IMG/VR virus record: IMGVR_UViG_3300025120_000657
Span: 1-21,636 of that record
DNA from: a virus
DNA length: 21,636 nucleotides
Strand: one strand, 5' to 3'
Shown: piece after piece, positions 1 to 10,038 of the stretch
Layout: each line of letters starts with the position of its first letter
How positions within the stretch are numbered: position 1 is the stretch's first letter
Position numbers and translations under genes: made by a program
The notes under the pieces: generated by a model
Database searches by the model: none
Seen by the model: the letters and a program-made list of their open reading frames with translations, nothing else
What the model was told of the DNA's origin: nothing

Positions 1-45
1 CTTCTAAGGTATCGGTCGTAGGTTCGAATCCTACCGGGTTCACCA
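1..45 (+). tRNA. tRNA-Arg(UCU), 3' portion, cut by window start
   Basis: The window opens inside the anticodon loop. Bases 1-7 (CTTCTAA) fit positions 32-38, with U33 and anticodon UCU at 3-5. Bases 8-12 are the 3' anticodon stem and 13-17 a 5-nt variable loop. Bases 18-22 and 30-34 form a perfect 5-bp T stem around the canonical loop TTCGAAT. Bases 35-41 are the 3' acceptor strand, 42 the discriminator A, and CCA is encoded at 43-45. The 5' half, including the D arm, lies outside the window. The tRNA would read AGA/AGG, the dominant arginine codons in the neighbouring genes; for example, all seven Arg codons of the gp25-like gene are AGA or AGG. Confidence 0.9.
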
Positions 46-48
46 CAT

Positions 49-125
49 AGGCATGTATCTCCTCAAGCTTATACCTTGTAGAAAGAGTAATTGGTTACAT
101 GAGAGTTCAAGTCTCTCCTTGCCTA
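49..125 (+). tRNA. tRNA-like element, atypical or degenerate
   Basis: It starts four bases after the tRNA-Arg. Bases 101-105 and 113-117 (GAGAG/CTCTC) form a perfect 5-bp T stem around TTCAAGT, which fits the TTCRANY loop rule. Bases 49-55 (AGGCATG) pair with 118-124 (CTTGCCT) at six of seven positions as an acceptor stem, and 56-57 are the usual T8-A9. The interior does not fit a cloverleaf: there is no GG-containing D loop and no clean 5-bp anticodon arm. The best local hairpins are CAAG/CTTG at 64-67/75-78, with a 7-nt loop CTTATAC that would present UAU, and GTAA/TTAC at 87-90/95-98. Discriminator A125 is followed by CCT, so CCA is not encoded. It may be a decayed tRNA, a tRNA with a missing D arm and a long variable arm, or a tRNA mimic. 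Confidence 0.4.
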
Positions 126-193
126 CCTTAAAGAAGATTTACATATGTATTAGTGATAAAACGTTATTCTACTTTTACACTCTCTATTACTTA

Positions 194-1189
194 ATGTATA
201 AATACTTTCTTACCCTTGCGGTTTTATTACTACCGTTATCTTTATTCCCCCAATCTTCAGATGCTATAATAGGTGATGTAGAAATTGAAACTGGATGTAT
301 TGGTGATACACCCTTTTACAATATAAATTATGTTGTGTGGAATTTAGGTAATGAAGAAATTACTAACTATTGTATTGAAATATGGAATGAAGATTACTAT
401 CAATGTTTTAGTAGTGATTTATTTGGGGCTTATGGAATTCCTCCTGGGGAAGGACAATTTTTTACTACCCCTTATTTTGAAATGGGGGGACCCGGTAATC
501 TTTTTGTAATGTCTGTTGATGATGTTAATGATGAAATAGTTACTGGGAATAATAATACAACTGTATTTTTACCTGAAATACCGGAATGTCCTGTAGAGTG
601 TTTAAACGATACAATTACTATAATCTTACCACCAGATACTATTATACAAACACAAATTGACACCGTTATAACGCATGAGTACGTGTATTTAACCGATACA
701 CTCATACAGTATGTGGATGTATATGTTAATGATACTACTTACATTTATATCACAGAATTTGATACAGATACAATTTATGTAGATAATACTTTACTTATTT
801 ATTTAACAGATACTATTACAAATACTATTGAAATTGATTGTCATACAGGTTTACCTTGTAATGAGTTAATTATTGATAGTTGTTGGCCTTGGAATGTTTT
901 TATACCTAATGTGTTAACCCCAAATAATGATGGCATAAATGATATTTGGGAAATAATTTTTGATTTAGAGTGTTGGGTTGACGTGGAGTTTAAAATCTAT
1001 AATAGATGGGGGGGTTTAATATTTGAAGGATATGGGGAAGATTATAGTAGTTATCCTTATTGGGATGGTAGTATGCAAGGTGGACCTACTTATGTTGCTA
1101 ATGGGGTATATGTTTATACTTTTTATGCTAGAAAATATAATTCACCTGAAGTATATCAAAGATCTGGACATCTTACAGTATTAAGGTAA
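194..1189 (+). CDS. Secreted protein with CARDB-like domain and T9SS type B sorting domain
   Basis: A 331-aa secreted or surface protein. The ATG at 194 is chosen because it gives a clean signal peptide (K3, hydrophobic residues 5-18). The frame is open back to 53, but that part overlaps the tRNA-like element. No lipobox cysteine is near the cleavage site; the first Cys is C35. Residues about 24-130 resemble a CARDB/Ig-like adhesion domain (YVVWNLGNEEITNY near 46-59, PPGEG at 83-87, an NNNTT strand near 119-123). Residues 139-216 are a stalk rich in Asp-Thr pairs. Residues 236-331 match the gliding-motility-associated C-terminal (CHU_C, type B) domain: FIPNVLTPNNDGINDIW, then YNRWG, WDG, VANGVYVY and a final SGHLTVLR. 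In Bacteroidota this domain directs export through the type IX secretion system and surface attachment. It sits between tRNA genes and phage late genes and was probably acquired from a host. Its job in the phage is not shown by the sequence; superinfection exclusion, altered adhesion or virion decoration are possible. Confidence 0.85.
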   Translation: MYKYFLTLAVLLLPLSLFPQSSDAIIGDVEIETGCIGDTPFYNINYVVWNLGNEEITNYCIEIWNEDYYQCFSSDLFGAYGIPPGEGQFFTTPYFEMGGPGNLFVMSVDDVNDEIVTGNNNTTVFLPEIPECPVECLNDTITIILPPDTIIQTQIDTVITHEYVYLTDTLIQYVDVYVNDTTYIYITEFDTDTIYVDNTLLIYLTDTITNTIEIDCHTGLPCNELIIDSCWPWNVFIPNVLTPNNDGINDIWEIIFDLECWVDVEFKIYNRWGGLIFEGYGEDYSSYPYWDGSMQGGPTYVANGVYVYTFYARKYNSPEVYQRSGHLTVLR

Positions 1190-1251: not shown

Positions 1252-1440
1252 ATGTCTACATACGAAGATCAATTAATGGAAGTTTATTTAGAAGTAGAGA
1301 AAAGAGGTATAAGAAATAAATTTGAAGAACAATGTAAAAAGATGCAATCCCAAGAAAAACATAAATACAAAACAGTTGCTGAAAAATGGGAGTATGCTTT
1401 ATATAGAGTACGAGGAGGAGTTTCAAAAGAAAACTATTAA
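1252..1440 (+). CDS. Small phage protein of unknown function (62 aa)
   Basis: A 62-residue, highly charged, probably helical protein, rich in Lys and Glu, with no signal peptide or membrane segment. The ATG follows an A/T-only leader (ATTTTAAAA) and has no Shine-Dalgarno. Its TAA stop shares its last A with the ATG of the next gene (TAATG at 1438-1442), so the two are probably translationally coupled. The purine run GAGGAGGAG near 1412-1420 is about 20 nt before the next start, too far to act as a usual ribosome site. I do not recognise a family. Compact size, charge and position suggest a small cytoplasmic accessory phage protein. Confidence 0.75.
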   Translation: MSTYEDQLMEVYLEVEKRGIRNKFEEQCKKMQSQEKHKYKTVAEKWEYALYRVRGGVSKENY

Positions 1441-1943
1441 TGGGTAAAATTGGAAATTTAGATGAAATATTTGGATTATTTTCACATGATGATAATGATA
1501 TATCTAATGGTAAAACTTCATATCAAGATTTAAAGTCTTCCCCTATATATTATGTAGGGATGTATAAAAAATTAATCTTAAACCATATTAACTTCAATAA
1601 AAAAGTTTTAAGTTTTTTCAAAAAATCTAATGCTGAGCTGGATATAGCGGATATAAAGGAAGCTGGTGAGTTTGTTACCTACAACAGAGCATGGTCTTAC
1701 ATTAATAATTTAGATATTAATAACCCTGAACATATAGAAGGAATTAATTATTATAAAGATGAGTATTTAGATACTTCATTAGAATTGGGGATATCTTTCT
1801 TCCAGCAACATGAAGAATATGAAAAATGTGCCTTTTTATTAAAAATTCAGAAAAAATCACAATTTCTTCAATCTAAGGTTGGAGACGAAAAACACTCAGC
1901 GTACATTGGAGGTACAGAGGTTAAGGGAAAGAAAGATAAATAG
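1440..1943 (+). CDS. Hypothetical phage protein (167 aa)
   Basis: A 167-aa soluble protein that starts on the last base of the preceding stop codon. The N-terminal ~25 residues are Asp/Asn/Gly-rich and probably flexible. From about residue 35 onward it looks helical and mixed-charge. The last ~15 residues are a Lys/Gly-rich tail ending GKKDK. No catalytic motif, membrane segment or signal peptide is visible. Coupling with the 62-aa gene suggests the two products work together or are needed in similar amounts. Function unknown; a small virion or regulatory component cannot be distinguished. Confidence 0.75.
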   Translation: MGKIGNLDEIFGLFSHDDNDISNGKTSYQDLKSSPIYYVGMYKKLILNHINFNKKVLSFFKKSNAELDIADIKEAGEFVTYNRAWSYINNLDINNPEHIEGINYYKDEYLDTSLELGISFFQQHEEYEKCAFLLKIQKKSQFLQSKVGDEKHSAYIGGTEVKGKKDK

Positions 1944-2226: not shown

Positions 2227-2997
2227 ATGGCAATTTCAGCAGAAAAGATTCAATTAAATTGGGTAGAGTTTTTAAGTAACATTGATACTTATATCTCTTC
2301 TCCTCGTAAAGAACAACTAACAAAATTTTATGAAACGTATGCAGATCGTATTATGATGATGCCTGCTGCTCACAAAAAAGAATACCATTCAGCATTTCCT
2401 GGAGGGTATGTAGACCATGTTAATAGGGTTGTAAAAGCATCTTTATCAATGTCTGCTGTATGGGAAGGATTTGGATGTGATATGTCTACATTTACTCAGG
2501 AAGAATTAGTATTTTCAGCAATAAATCATGATTTAGGTAAAATGGGAGATAGTAATCATGAAGCCTATATCCCCCAAACTGATAAGTGGAGGAGAGATAA
2601 ATTAGGTGAAGATTATATGTTTAATAAAGAGTTAGCATTTGCAGCAGTACCAGATAGAGGATTATTTCTACTACAAGACAATGGTATAAAATATACATTT
2701 AATGAGATGGTGGCAATACAAACTCATGATGGGTTATACGATTCAGCAAATGATAAGTATTTAAAAGGTTATATGCCAGAACAAAAACCACGCACATCTT
2801 TACCTTTTATTTTACATCAGGCTGATATGATGGCTGCTAGAATCGAATTTGAAATAGAATGGTTGCCTAAATTCAAGAATAGCGTGGATACTAGCAAGAA
2901 GAATTATACATTAACCAATGATAATAAATCCACTAAATCTAAAGCACTTGGTACAATATCAAGTCCAGGACTTAAAAATATGTTAGATAATTTATGA
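2227..2997 (+). CDS. HD-domain phosphohydrolase
   Basis: A 256-aa cytoplasmic HD-superfamily metal-dependent phosphohydrolase. Visible metal-ligand candidates are H64 in GGYVDHVNRV (59-68), the H101-D102 pair in NHDLGK (100-105), H167 in QTHDG (165-169) and D200 in HQADMMA (197-203). That gives the H...HD...H...D order of the superfamily. The GG-x-x-x-H lead-in resembles YhaM-type 3'-5' exonucleases and related HD nucleases. Those usually also carry an OB-fold domain, which is not evident here. The C-terminal ~40 residues are Lys/Ser/Asn-rich and look disordered. The substrate cannot be read from sequence; nucleotides, cyclic nucleotides or RNA ends are all possible. Its stop overlaps the start of the next gene (ATGA at 2994-2997). 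Placement just before the late sigma gene fits a nucleotide or RNA metabolism role during infection. Confidence 0.85.
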   Translation: MAISAEKIQLNWVEFLSNIDTYISSPRKEQLTKFYETYADRIMMMPAAHKKEYHSAFPGGYVDHVNRVVKASLSMSAVWEGFGCDMSTFTQEELVFSAINHDLGKMGDSNHEAYIPQTDKWRRDKLGEDYMFNKELAFAAVPDRGLFLLQDNGIKYTFNEMVAIQTHDGLYDSANDKYLKGYMPEQKPRTSLPFILHQADMMAARIEFEIEWLPKFKNSVDTSKKNYTLTNDNKSTKSKALGTISSPGLKNMLDNL

Positions 2998-7412: not shown

Positions 7413-7763
7413 ATGAAGACATCAGCATTAAAAATAATAATAAAAGAAGCCGTAAAAGAAGCAATTCAAGAAGAATTGAAGGACATTTTATTAGAAGCTG
7501 TTAAGACTCCAAAAGTTATAACACAAGCACCTATGACCTCTATGGTTGAAAGTGTAAATCCTACACTCCCCCCTCAACCATCAATGTCATCTGAAGAAAA
7601 AAGAGCAGCTTATGCTAATATCTTAGGAGATACTGGAGCAGCTTTAAATAGTAATAATGTTCAATCTTTTCAACCTCAAGCGGGGATGGATGTAGCTAAT
7701 GGAACATTACCATCAGGAGAAGTAGATATGTCTCAAATAATGGGATTAATGAATCAAAAATAA
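7413..7763 (+). CDS. Hypothetical phage protein with N-terminal helix (116 aa)
   Basis: A 116-aa protein. Residues 1-31 (beginning MKTSALKIIIKEAVKEAIQE) form a strong Lys/Glu amphipathic helix. The rest (Pro, Ser, Gln, Asn, Met-rich) looks disordered, with one short helix around 60-72 (SSEEKRAAYANILG). It ends in a Met-rich tail. Its stop overlaps the gp25 ATG by one base (TAATG). The helix-plus-flexible-tail design would suit a tail assembly adaptor or chaperone, but no family is recognised. It is the first gene after the best late-promoter candidate. Confidence 0.7.
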   Translation: MKTSALKIIIKEAVKEAIQEELKDILLEAVKTPKVITQAPMTSMVESVNPTLPPQPSMSSEEKRAAYANILGDTGAALNSNNVQSFQPQAGMDVANGTLPSGEVDMSQIMGLMNQK

Positions 7764-8170
7764 TGGCAAGAATATTACAAAGTAGATTTCCTATAGACCT
7801 TCAACCTAGCAGAGCTGTTGGGTTTGGTTTTCCTTTAAATGGAGATGCTGTCTTTGTACCTACTTATACTACAAGGGAACAAATTAAAGCTAATATGATT
7901 AATTATTTGTTAACTAATAAAGGAGAAAGAGTATTTAGACCCCTATTTGGTGCTGATTTAAGAAATTTATTATTTGAAAATATTTTAGATGTTACTGTAG
8001 ATGATTTAAAAACATCGATACAAAATGACATTTCAGTATATTTCCCAAATGTAGAAATAAAAGAAATAGAATTTAATAACCAACCAGATAATAATACTAT
8101 CAATTTTAACTTAACTTATCAAATAGTAAATTTTGGAATAGAAGATAGTTTAAATATATCACTACAATAA
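7763..8170 (+). CDS. Baseplate wedge protein, gp25-like
   Basis: A 135-aa homologue of T4 gp25 (132 aa)/P2 W, the small wedge protein that helps start sheath assembly at the baseplate. The family signature is visible: GFGFPLNGDAVF near residues 20-31, then NYLLTNKGERVFRPLFGADL (residues about 48-67), including the diagnostic ER-x-x-x-P-x-x-G arrangement, followed by LLFE. The C-terminal half alternates strands and helices as in the family. It starts on the last base of the preceding stop and its own stop overlaps the gp6-like ATG, so the three genes are translationally coupled. All seven Arg codons are AGA or AGG. The gp25-gp6 order is the usual conserved baseplate order. Confidence 0.92.
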   Translation: MARILQSRFPIDLQPSRAVGFGFPLNGDAVFVPTYTTREQIKANMINYLLTNKGERVFRPLFGADLRNLLFENILDVTVDDLKTSIQNDISVYFPNVEIKEIEFNNQPDNNTINFNLTYQIVNFGIEDSLNISLQ

Positions 8171-10038
8171 TGGCTAAATTAGAAAGAGACATAAGATACA
8201 TAGATAGAGATTTTAATACACTTAGAAACTCTTTAATACAATATTCTAAAACTTATTTTCCCGATACATACAATGATTTTTCAGAAACATCTACTGGGAT
8301 GTTATTTATGGAAATGGCAGCTTATGTAGGTGATGTTTTATCTTTTTATTTAGATAACCAGATTCAAGAAACTTTTATTCAAAAGGCAAGACAAACCACA
8401 AATTTATATGCTTTAGCTTATTCTTTAGGGTATGTGCCTAAAGTTACAACAGTTGCTTCTGCTATGGTAGATTTTTACCAACAAGTACCAGCTATATTTG
8501 ACATACCTACAGGTGAGTATGTCCCTGATTATAATTATTCATTAATTATTCCAGAAAACACTCAGGTAGTGTCTAATACTGACTCAACCCAAAAATTTAT
8601 AATTGAAGATGCTATTGATTTTTCAGCATCAAGTTCATTAGACCCAACTATAAGTTCAGTATATCAAATAGCAGGTTTAAACCCTACTTATTATTTACTA
8701 AAAAAATCAAGAAAAGCAATATCGGCAACTGTAAACACACAAGAATTTGTATTTACAGCATCTAAAAAATTTGACACTAGAACTATTAATAATACTAATA
8801 TTATAGGCATATTAGACATAGTTGACAGTGATGGTAATACTTGGTATGAAGTGCCCAATTTAGCGCAAGAAAACGTATTTAATACAATAAGAAACACAAA
8901 TACAAATGATCCCAACTTTATAGTAGATCCTGAAGTTCCTTATTTATTAGAATTAAAAACAGTACAAAGAAGATTTGCGTCTAGATTTTTAAATGAAAGA
9001 AATCTCCAATTACAATTTGGAGCAGGAAGTACTAGATCAACAACAGAAGAAATAATTCCAAATCCTGATAATGTAGGTTTAGGATTACCTTTTGAAAGAA
9101 CTAAATTAACAACAGCCTTTTCTCCTGTAAATTTTGTATTTACTAATACTTATGGAATTGCTCCCTATAATACCACTTTAACAGTAAGATATTTAACTGG
9201 GGGAGGAGCAGCAGCTAATGTAGAAGCTGGAGCTTTGACAGTAGTAGATGATACTAATATTGTTTTTATTAACCCAGATTTAGCAAATGAAGCTTTAGCA
9301 AATCAAATATTTAATACTATATCTAGTAATAATCCAAAAGCAGCAGATGGAGGTATGGATGGGGATACTATAGAAGATATAAGACAAAACTCATTAGGAA
9401 ATTTCCAAAACCAATTAAGAACAGTAACTACACAGGATTATTTAATTAGATCATTATCTATGCCTTCTAATTTAGGGGTCATAGCTAAAGCACATGCCCA
9501 GCCCCAAAAAATAGGAGATTATCAAGCTGGTGAACTTCCAACAGTATTAGATTTATATGTTTTATCTTATGATGCTAATAAAAAATTAAGAGAGGCCTCA
9601 TTATTACTAAAACGAAATCTACAGACATATTTATCAGAGTATAGAATGATAAATGATTCAATTAAAATCAAGGATGCTTATATAATTAATATTGAAGTAT
9701 TGTTTGATATTATTGTATTACCTAATTTTAATAATAGTGAAGTAATAACTAAATGTGTAGATTCACTAACTAGTTATTTTGACATAGATAAATGGCAAAT
9801 TAATGAACCTATTTTATTAAAAGATATATCTATACTTTTAGATAAAGTAGAAGGAGTTCAAACTGTAAATGATATAACAATTAATAATTTATCTGGAGAA
9901 AATTTAGGGTATAGTAAATTTTCATATGATATAACAACAGCTACCATAAAAGGTGTAGTTTACCCATCTATAGATCCTATGGTTTTTGAAGTTAAAAATC
10001 CAACACAAGATATAAAAGGTAGAGTAGTACAATTATAA
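8170..10038 (+). CDS. Baseplate wedge protein, gp6/J-like
   Basis: A 622-aa homologue of T4 gp6 (660 aa), the wedge protein that forms the inner ring of the baseplate. The N-terminal ~105 residues are diagnostic: RDFNTLRNSLIQYSKTYFPD, then TGMLFMEMAAYVGDVLSFYL and QARQTTNLYALAYSLGY-like spacing. The central J-like domain includes a DIRQN...FQNQLRTVTTQDYLIRS segment near residues 400-428, the typical joint before the C-terminal domain. The C-terminal ~150 residues carry alternating strands and helices (e.g. EPILLKDISILLDKVEGVQT) that probably mediate dimerisation. It is coupled to gp25 by TAATG. A 9-bp gap separates it from the next wedge gene. Confidence 0.9.
   Translation: MAKLERDIRYIDRDFNTLRNSLIQYSKTYFPDTYNDFSETSTGMLFMEMAAYVGDVLSFYLDNQIQETFIQKARQTTNLYALAYSLGYVPKVTTVASAMVDFYQQVPAIFDIPTGEYVPDYNYSLIIPENTQVVSNTDSTQKFIIEDAIDFSASSSLDPTISSVYQIAGLNPTYYLLKKSRKAISATVNTQEFVFTASKKFDTRTINNTNIIGILDIVDSDGNTWYEVPNLAQENVFNTIRNTNTNDPNFIVDPEVPYLLELKTVQRRFASRFLNERNLQLQFGAGSTRSTTEEIIPNPDNVGLGLPFERTKLTTAFSPVNFVFTNTYGIAPYNTTLTVRYLTGGGAAANVEAGALTVVDDTNIVFINPDLANEALANQIFNTISSNNPKAADGGMDGDTIEDIRQNSLGNFQNQLRTVTTQDYLIRSLSMPSNLGVIAKAHAQPQKIGDYQAGELPTVLDLYVLSYDANKKLREASLLLKRNLQTYLSEYRMINDSIKIKDAYIINIEVLFDIIVLPNFNNSEVITKCVDSLTSYFDIDKWQINEPILLKDISILLDKVEGVQTVNDITINNLSGENLGYSKFSYDITTATIKGVVYPSIDPMVFEVKNPTQDIKGRVVQL

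Follow-up and report, generated by a model that had tools for sequence, protein, structure and literature searches.

The window analysed here covers positions 1-21,636 of IMG/VR virus record IMGVR_UViG_3300025120_000657 (21,636 nucleotides). Close to its start lies a complete gene whose product ends in a CHU_C domain, with tRNA sequences on its 5' side and conserved phage genes on its 3' side. The features located in and around this gene are as follows:

1..45, plus strand: 3' portion of a tRNA gene that the window truncates, identified as tRNA-Arg(tct) from its counterparts in relatives
49..125, plus strand: tRNA-like element (Rfam tRNA, 27.3 bits, below the gathering threshold of 29), near-identical in several relatives
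171..625, plus strand: segment exchanged as a whole in L015, a related phage, and comprising the signal peptide, the passenger and the beginning of the linker; blastn similarity stops at 170 and resumes at 626
194..1189, plus strand: whole CHU_C gene, 331 aa
194..253, plus strand: residues 1-20, predicted signal peptide with an estimated cleavage site, based on hydropathy and on conservation among relatives
254..586, plus strand: passenger, a predicted CARDB/Ig-like beta-sandwich, residues 21-131 (AF2 model and PDB comparison)
587..889, plus strand: Asp-Thr-rich linker, residues 132-232 (DT pairs; pLDDT below 50 over most of its length)
899..1189, plus strand: CHU_C/TIGR04131 type B T9SS sorting domain, residues 236-331, stop codon included
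1252..1943, plus strand: a pair of conserved phage genes encoding 62 and 167 aa, directly 3' of the CHU_C gene, their order kept in relatives
2227..2997, plus strand: gene matching an Immutovirus gene annotated as phosphohydrolase (47% identity, same order; phrog_5889)
7763..10038, plus strand: baseplate wedge genes of the gp25 and gp6 types (PF04965, phrog_261, phrog_10646; Immutovirus)

The initial annotation of this DNA had read the gene product as a signal peptide, a CARDB-like domain, an Asp-Thr stalk and a complete gliding-motility-associated C-terminal domain (CTD), and that description was borne out. A hydrophobic stretch covers residues 6-17 (KD 2.46, versus at most 1.46 elsewhere), and the same signal-peptide-like pattern recurs at the N-terminus of all 16 relatives checked. 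A start at position 53, which would give the longest open reading frame, was rejected; the frame 5' of 194 is closed in the related locus L003, and 194 is where the signal peptide starts. The linker contains 8 DT dipeptides against a mean of 2.3 in shuffled sequence and is predicted by AF2 to be unstructured. At the C-terminus, two of the HMM searches that had been proposed as a check returned matches above cut-off: PF13585 (CHU_C) scored 55.8 bits (E 5e-15, cut-off 27) over residues 236-314, and TIGR04131 (NCBIfam) scored 39.3 bits (cut-off 35) over profile positions 3-82 of 85, the latter profile matching in 0 of 14 control genomes. The CTD was modelled by AF2 with moderate confidence. The CARDB-like assignment has a structural basis: when residues 22-131 were modelled by AF2 (pLDDT about 74), the result could be aligned with 2kl6, a CARDB domain (Z 9.3, rmsd 2.9, 99 residues), which is one among many Ig-like folds matched by the model. 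At the level of profiles, no Pfam family, CARDB or catalytic, matched the passenger, which is accordingly described as CARDB-like by predicted fold only. The AF2 models are of moderate quality, with mean pLDDT values of 61 and 68, and a search of PHROGs gave no match for the window protein. The reading of this ORF best supported by its sequence is that of a phage gene for a putative T9SS type B-sorted surface protein, the export and surface location of which are predicted on the same grounds.

The placement of the gene between tRNA genes and phage late genes, as first annotated, was likewise upheld. No complete tRNA was detected in the window by ARAGORN because the window start falls inside a tRNA gene; the stretch of L002 equivalent to positions 1-45 matches the Rfam tRNA family, and complete genes for tRNA-Leu(taa) and tRNA-Arg(tct) lie immediately 5' of the CHU_C gene in relatives L003, L005 and L010. 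On the 3' side, the conserved phage genes lead into the gp25/gp6-type baseplate genes. The base composition of the gene is phage-like (G+C of 0.309, compared to 0.299 for the phage), and promoter-like sites near it showed no excess over shuffled sequences. The tRNA-like element at 49-125 has a good T-arm and is perhaps a degenerate or unusual tRNA.

Distribution of the gene among phages

Twelve proteins of the window are matched, in collinear order and with the baseplate region included, in Flavobacterium phage immuto (Immutovirus), a 160-kb phage of Flavobacterium sp. LMO8, and the window gp6 shares 44% identity with the immuto gp6 along its full length. Judged by these matches, the window phage is a relative of the cultured Immutovirus. 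We infer a host equipped with a T9SS both from the CTD and from the infection of Flavobacterium by Immutovirus. No CHU_C gene was seen at the corresponding place in Immutovirus, its nearest cultured relative, and the gene is for that reason regarded as accessory. Among long contigs that carry the gene, the closest (G002-G004; 164 kb) encode a T4-type Gp23 and a terminase, both of which are also found in Immutovirus; the window is a fragment that ends short of the genes for these two proteins.

Close relatives of the CHU_C gene number 27, all of them in viral contigs, and a profile search gave 165 loci in IMG/VR, with several lineages of T4-type (Gp23) phages represented. The gp6 type of the window occurs in 8 of the 34 records tested, in one of them only distantly, and many other carriers are different phages, several also with Gp23. 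There is usually one CHU_C copy per phage record (records of up to 212 kb). The gene was found again, with the same junctions to the same flanking phage genes, in independent metagenomes, on contigs of up to 164 kb, and in other phages it has different neighbours. A protein search of INPHARED returned only two uncultured megaphages, matching about the C-terminal third of the window protein, and with two other relatives as queries the same two CTDs were recovered together with one protease-only match. Across 84,980 genomes of bacteria and archaea, a close scan gave no whole-protein relative, and a bacterial profile scan gave mainly CTD-length alignments among the matches listed, the best listed being 43% over 115 residues. 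Signals of type A are present in only two (G010 and G012) of 19 of the same phages.

Two further observations concern the carriers. CHU_C-like proteins are encoded by uncultured phages of about 640 kb at LR756502.1 (about 519115-519387; L051) and LR745206.1 (about 27643-27963; L052), the latter protein being 732 aa in length, and the trait thus reaches megaphages. In G015 (116905-118037), two different CHU_C genes (L030/L047) are adjacent.

Passenger exchange and selection

The gene behaves as a display cassette in which the linker and CTD are kept while the signal peptide and passenger are swapped wholesale. In addition to the segment replaced in L015, the L020 and L003 loci share 93.5% identity over 10.3 kb from the linker on and 100% over 92 b upstream but carry unrelated passengers, and between L068 and L012 identity is about 96% on either side of passengers that differ; flank identity around swapped passengers is 93-96%. 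At the DNA level, the L068 passenger shares 86% identity with the one in L015, a phage unrelated to L068 whose locus otherwise has only tRNA genes and the CTD family in common with it. With respect to architecture, the CARDB-like domain occurs alone in the window protein, L003, L011 and L013, a second beta-sandwich alone in L015, L020 and L068, and the two together in L012, L014, L021 and L025, while L023, L024 and L026 combine an M43 metalloprotease with further domains (Peptidase_M43, 64-67 bits in the two proteins scanned); other architectures also exist. For the fold of the L015 passenger, no reliable match was obtained (pTM 0.69, best Z 7.0). Values of dN/dS were 0.03-0.12 for the CTD, 0.14-0.23 for the passenger and 0.12-0.58 for the linker; the CTD is under strong purifying selection, the passenger is under laxer selection, and the linker is the most variable part.

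The proteins with the M43 domain (L023:89-2971, L024:2070-4979 and L026:1035-3890) are about 960 aa long, carry it N-terminally (HEMGHYLTLYH), and have the appearance of T9SS-tagged proteases. A small secreted protein, about 120 aa long and containing a loop of the EF-hand/dockerin-like kind, is encoded next to the CHU_C gene at L068:10665-11030, L020:149-511, L012:11055-11417 and other loci, 3' of it in some phages and overlapping its 5' side in others; it is absent from the window and may be a partner of the displayed protein. Finally, L068 (at 1184, 7182, 8293, 11046 and 17286) and L012 contain a repeat of about 75-95 bp, its copies roughly 86-93% alike, one of which lies just past the CHU_C and companion genes; it is possibly a promoter or recombination element.

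Proposed export route and possible functions

Type B substrates require a PorP/SprF-like shuttle, usually encoded next door, and three orphan type B substrates of F. johnsoniae share a single one (PMC12618676). The same paper names five motifs, A-E, within the final 100 residues of such substrates. PorP-like proteins probably also anchor type B proteins at the cell surface (PMC9143113). A phage-encoded shuttle of this type was sought but not found: PorP/SprF was found in 0 of 30 phage records, the same search having recovered 3-25 copies in each of 8 of 8 Bacteroidota genomes, and directly 3' of the CHU_C gene in 0 of 81 phage loci compared to 12 of 80 bacterial loci. To compare sorting domains, 60 CHU_C domains from three host genomes were classed as paired (18) or orphan (42) according to whether a shuttle gene lies just downstream. 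The phage CTD profile scored the host orphans at a median of 53.1 bits and the paired domains at 44.2 (means differing by 9.9 bits; stratified permutation p 0.003 over the three host genomes), with p values of 0.007 for genome G033 and of 0.12, not significant, for G031. In a tree built from 92 columns, many forks of which are weak, the 14 phage CTDs cluster together, in a region where every host CTD is an orphan. This grouping of phage CTDs with host orphan type B CTDs suggests the use of a shared host shuttle, on which the phage protein would depend given that no shuttle gene was found in the phages and that its CTD resembles the orphan class.

It appears likely from these findings that the gene is a phage-encoded surface-display cassette exported by the T9SS of the host. 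In the infected cell, the Sec signal peptide would take the protein across the inner membrane, and the host T9SS would then recognise the CHU_C domain and carry the protein over the outer membrane. It would stay at the cell surface, attached to a PorP/SprF-type shuttle of the host, probably a shared one of the Fjoh_1677 kind, with the Asp-Thr linker keeping the exchangeable N-terminal passenger at a distance from the cell. The features expected of such a protein are those of the orphan type B substrates of Flavobacterium johnsoniae (Fjoh_1123, 1720 and 4934), which likewise combine a Sec signal peptide and a C-terminal type B domain with no adjacent PorP/SprF (PMC12618676); the likeness lies in these features, and the protein considered here is encoded by a phage. 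SprB with SprF and PG1035 with PorP similarly involve a type B CTD protein thought to be surface-anchored via a PorP-like protein (PMC9143113), whereas no such partner gene was found in the phages.

Of the uses to which a displayed passenger might be put, receptor masking or superinfection exclusion is ranked first as the most likely, with adhesion or aggregation next. That the passenger alters the exposure of the cell to other phages in this manner is nonetheless a tentative proposal. It would explain the rapid swapping of passengers, and fast exchange of the exposed part is to be expected for a protein whose extracellular partners vary. A secreted adhesin or enzyme that serves as a public good, helping the infected cell or the progeny to adhere or aggregate, degrading matrix or releasing nutrients instead of excluding rivals, is possible but somewhat doubtful. 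The M43 protease variants, the adhesin-like Ig/CARDB fold and the glycoside hydrolases among the type A cargo of Cryophage (PMC7468147) would all be accommodated by it, but the window passenger matches no catalytic family and the gain for a phage with a short infection is hard to see. Conservation is greatest in the CTD, and the shuttles of F. johnsoniae are scarce, needed stoichiometrically and apparently not recycled (PMC12618676), as would suit an abundant type B CTD that occupies the limited host shuttles and blocks the export of host adhesins, for example to stop gliding or change adsorption, with the passenger playing a minor part. A pure decoy, however, has no need of passengers that are elaborate, under purifying selection, moved between phages and in some cases proteases, and this explanation is thought unlikely.

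Still less probable is a virion component, such as a decoration or fibre, in which the CHU_C domain has been reused as a fold. The position of the gene upstream of the baseplate block and the frequency of Ig-like folds on virions are in keeping with such a role, as is the discussion of T9SS-domain genes of crAss-like phages as structural by position (PMC6949934). Virions assemble in the cytoplasm, however, whereas the signal peptide is conserved in all relatives checked; moreover, Immutovirus, which is collinear in its structural genes, lacks the gene, and in other phages the gene neighbours differ. An accidentally acquired host gene with no role in the phage is highly improbable. Capture would be easy given the dozens of CHU_C genes per Bacteroidota genome, but the same junctions recur in many independent contigs of up to 164 kb, the gene is under purifying selection, its G+C content is phage-like and the close scan revealed no full-length bacterial relative. 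An assembly chimera of host and phage DNA, against which the initial annotation had cautioned, is ruled out by the recurrence in independent long phage contigs.

Returning to the surface-display cassette, we propose, again with reservation, that large Bacteroidota phages may maintain a dedicated recombining display locus, in which a fixed orphan-class T9SS signal and linker receive swapped passengers that remodel the cell surface against rivals via a shared shuttle. If true, this would represent a common but little-described remodelling by phages of the Bacteroidota cell exterior through the type IX machine of the host, and it would connect competition among phages with the machinery for secretion and gliding in a major group of marine and gut bacteria. 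The superinfection-exclusion proteins known to us work within or at the envelope and use no dedicated secretion route across the outer membrane. The finding also supplies specific genes for experiments, an export tag that is conserved and a collection of naturally occurring passengers.

The best match of the AF2 model in a viral structure library, A0A7S9STS8 (E 6e-19, 28% identity), is a gliding motility-associated CTD protein of Virus NIOZ-UU157 and, to our knowledge, only a database entry; the papers found on the subject contain no characterisation of it. The initial annotation named no characterised phage strategy of this kind, which needs amendment for type A cargo: the idea of T9SS hijack by a phage has a precedent in Cryophage, for which Bellas et al. 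2020 described three variable type A T9SS cargo genes and proposed hijack and possible superinfection exclusion (PMC7468147). As here, the cargo genes differ between variants of one phage, but the domains of this cryoconite phage are of type A (with endoglucanase, GH39 and PA14), in contrast to the type B CTD and linker of the present gene, which occurs in several T4-type lineages, has its exchange boundary inside the gene and involves transfer between unrelated phages. T9SS sorting domains are also present in some crAss-like phage proteins with BACON domains (PMC6949934), which belong to another phage group, bear another passenger and have been discussed in structural roles by gene position. 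For type B cargo in phages, no papers were found in the open-access literature. As far as that literature shows, what is new is the occurrence of type B cargo, how widely it is spread among T4-type phages and the position of the cassette boundary within the gene; the same applies, on the same footing, to the transfer of a passenger between phages that are unrelated and to the connection with orphan signals where the phages have no shuttle gene that could be found.

The type A signals of records G010 and G012 belong to long Por_Secre_tail proteins (L049 and L050) with CTDPxAxNYxPxA-like repeats. Directly 3' of their genes is encoded a protein of 360-370 aa (that of L049 without a Pfam match) which resembles an outer-membrane barrel.
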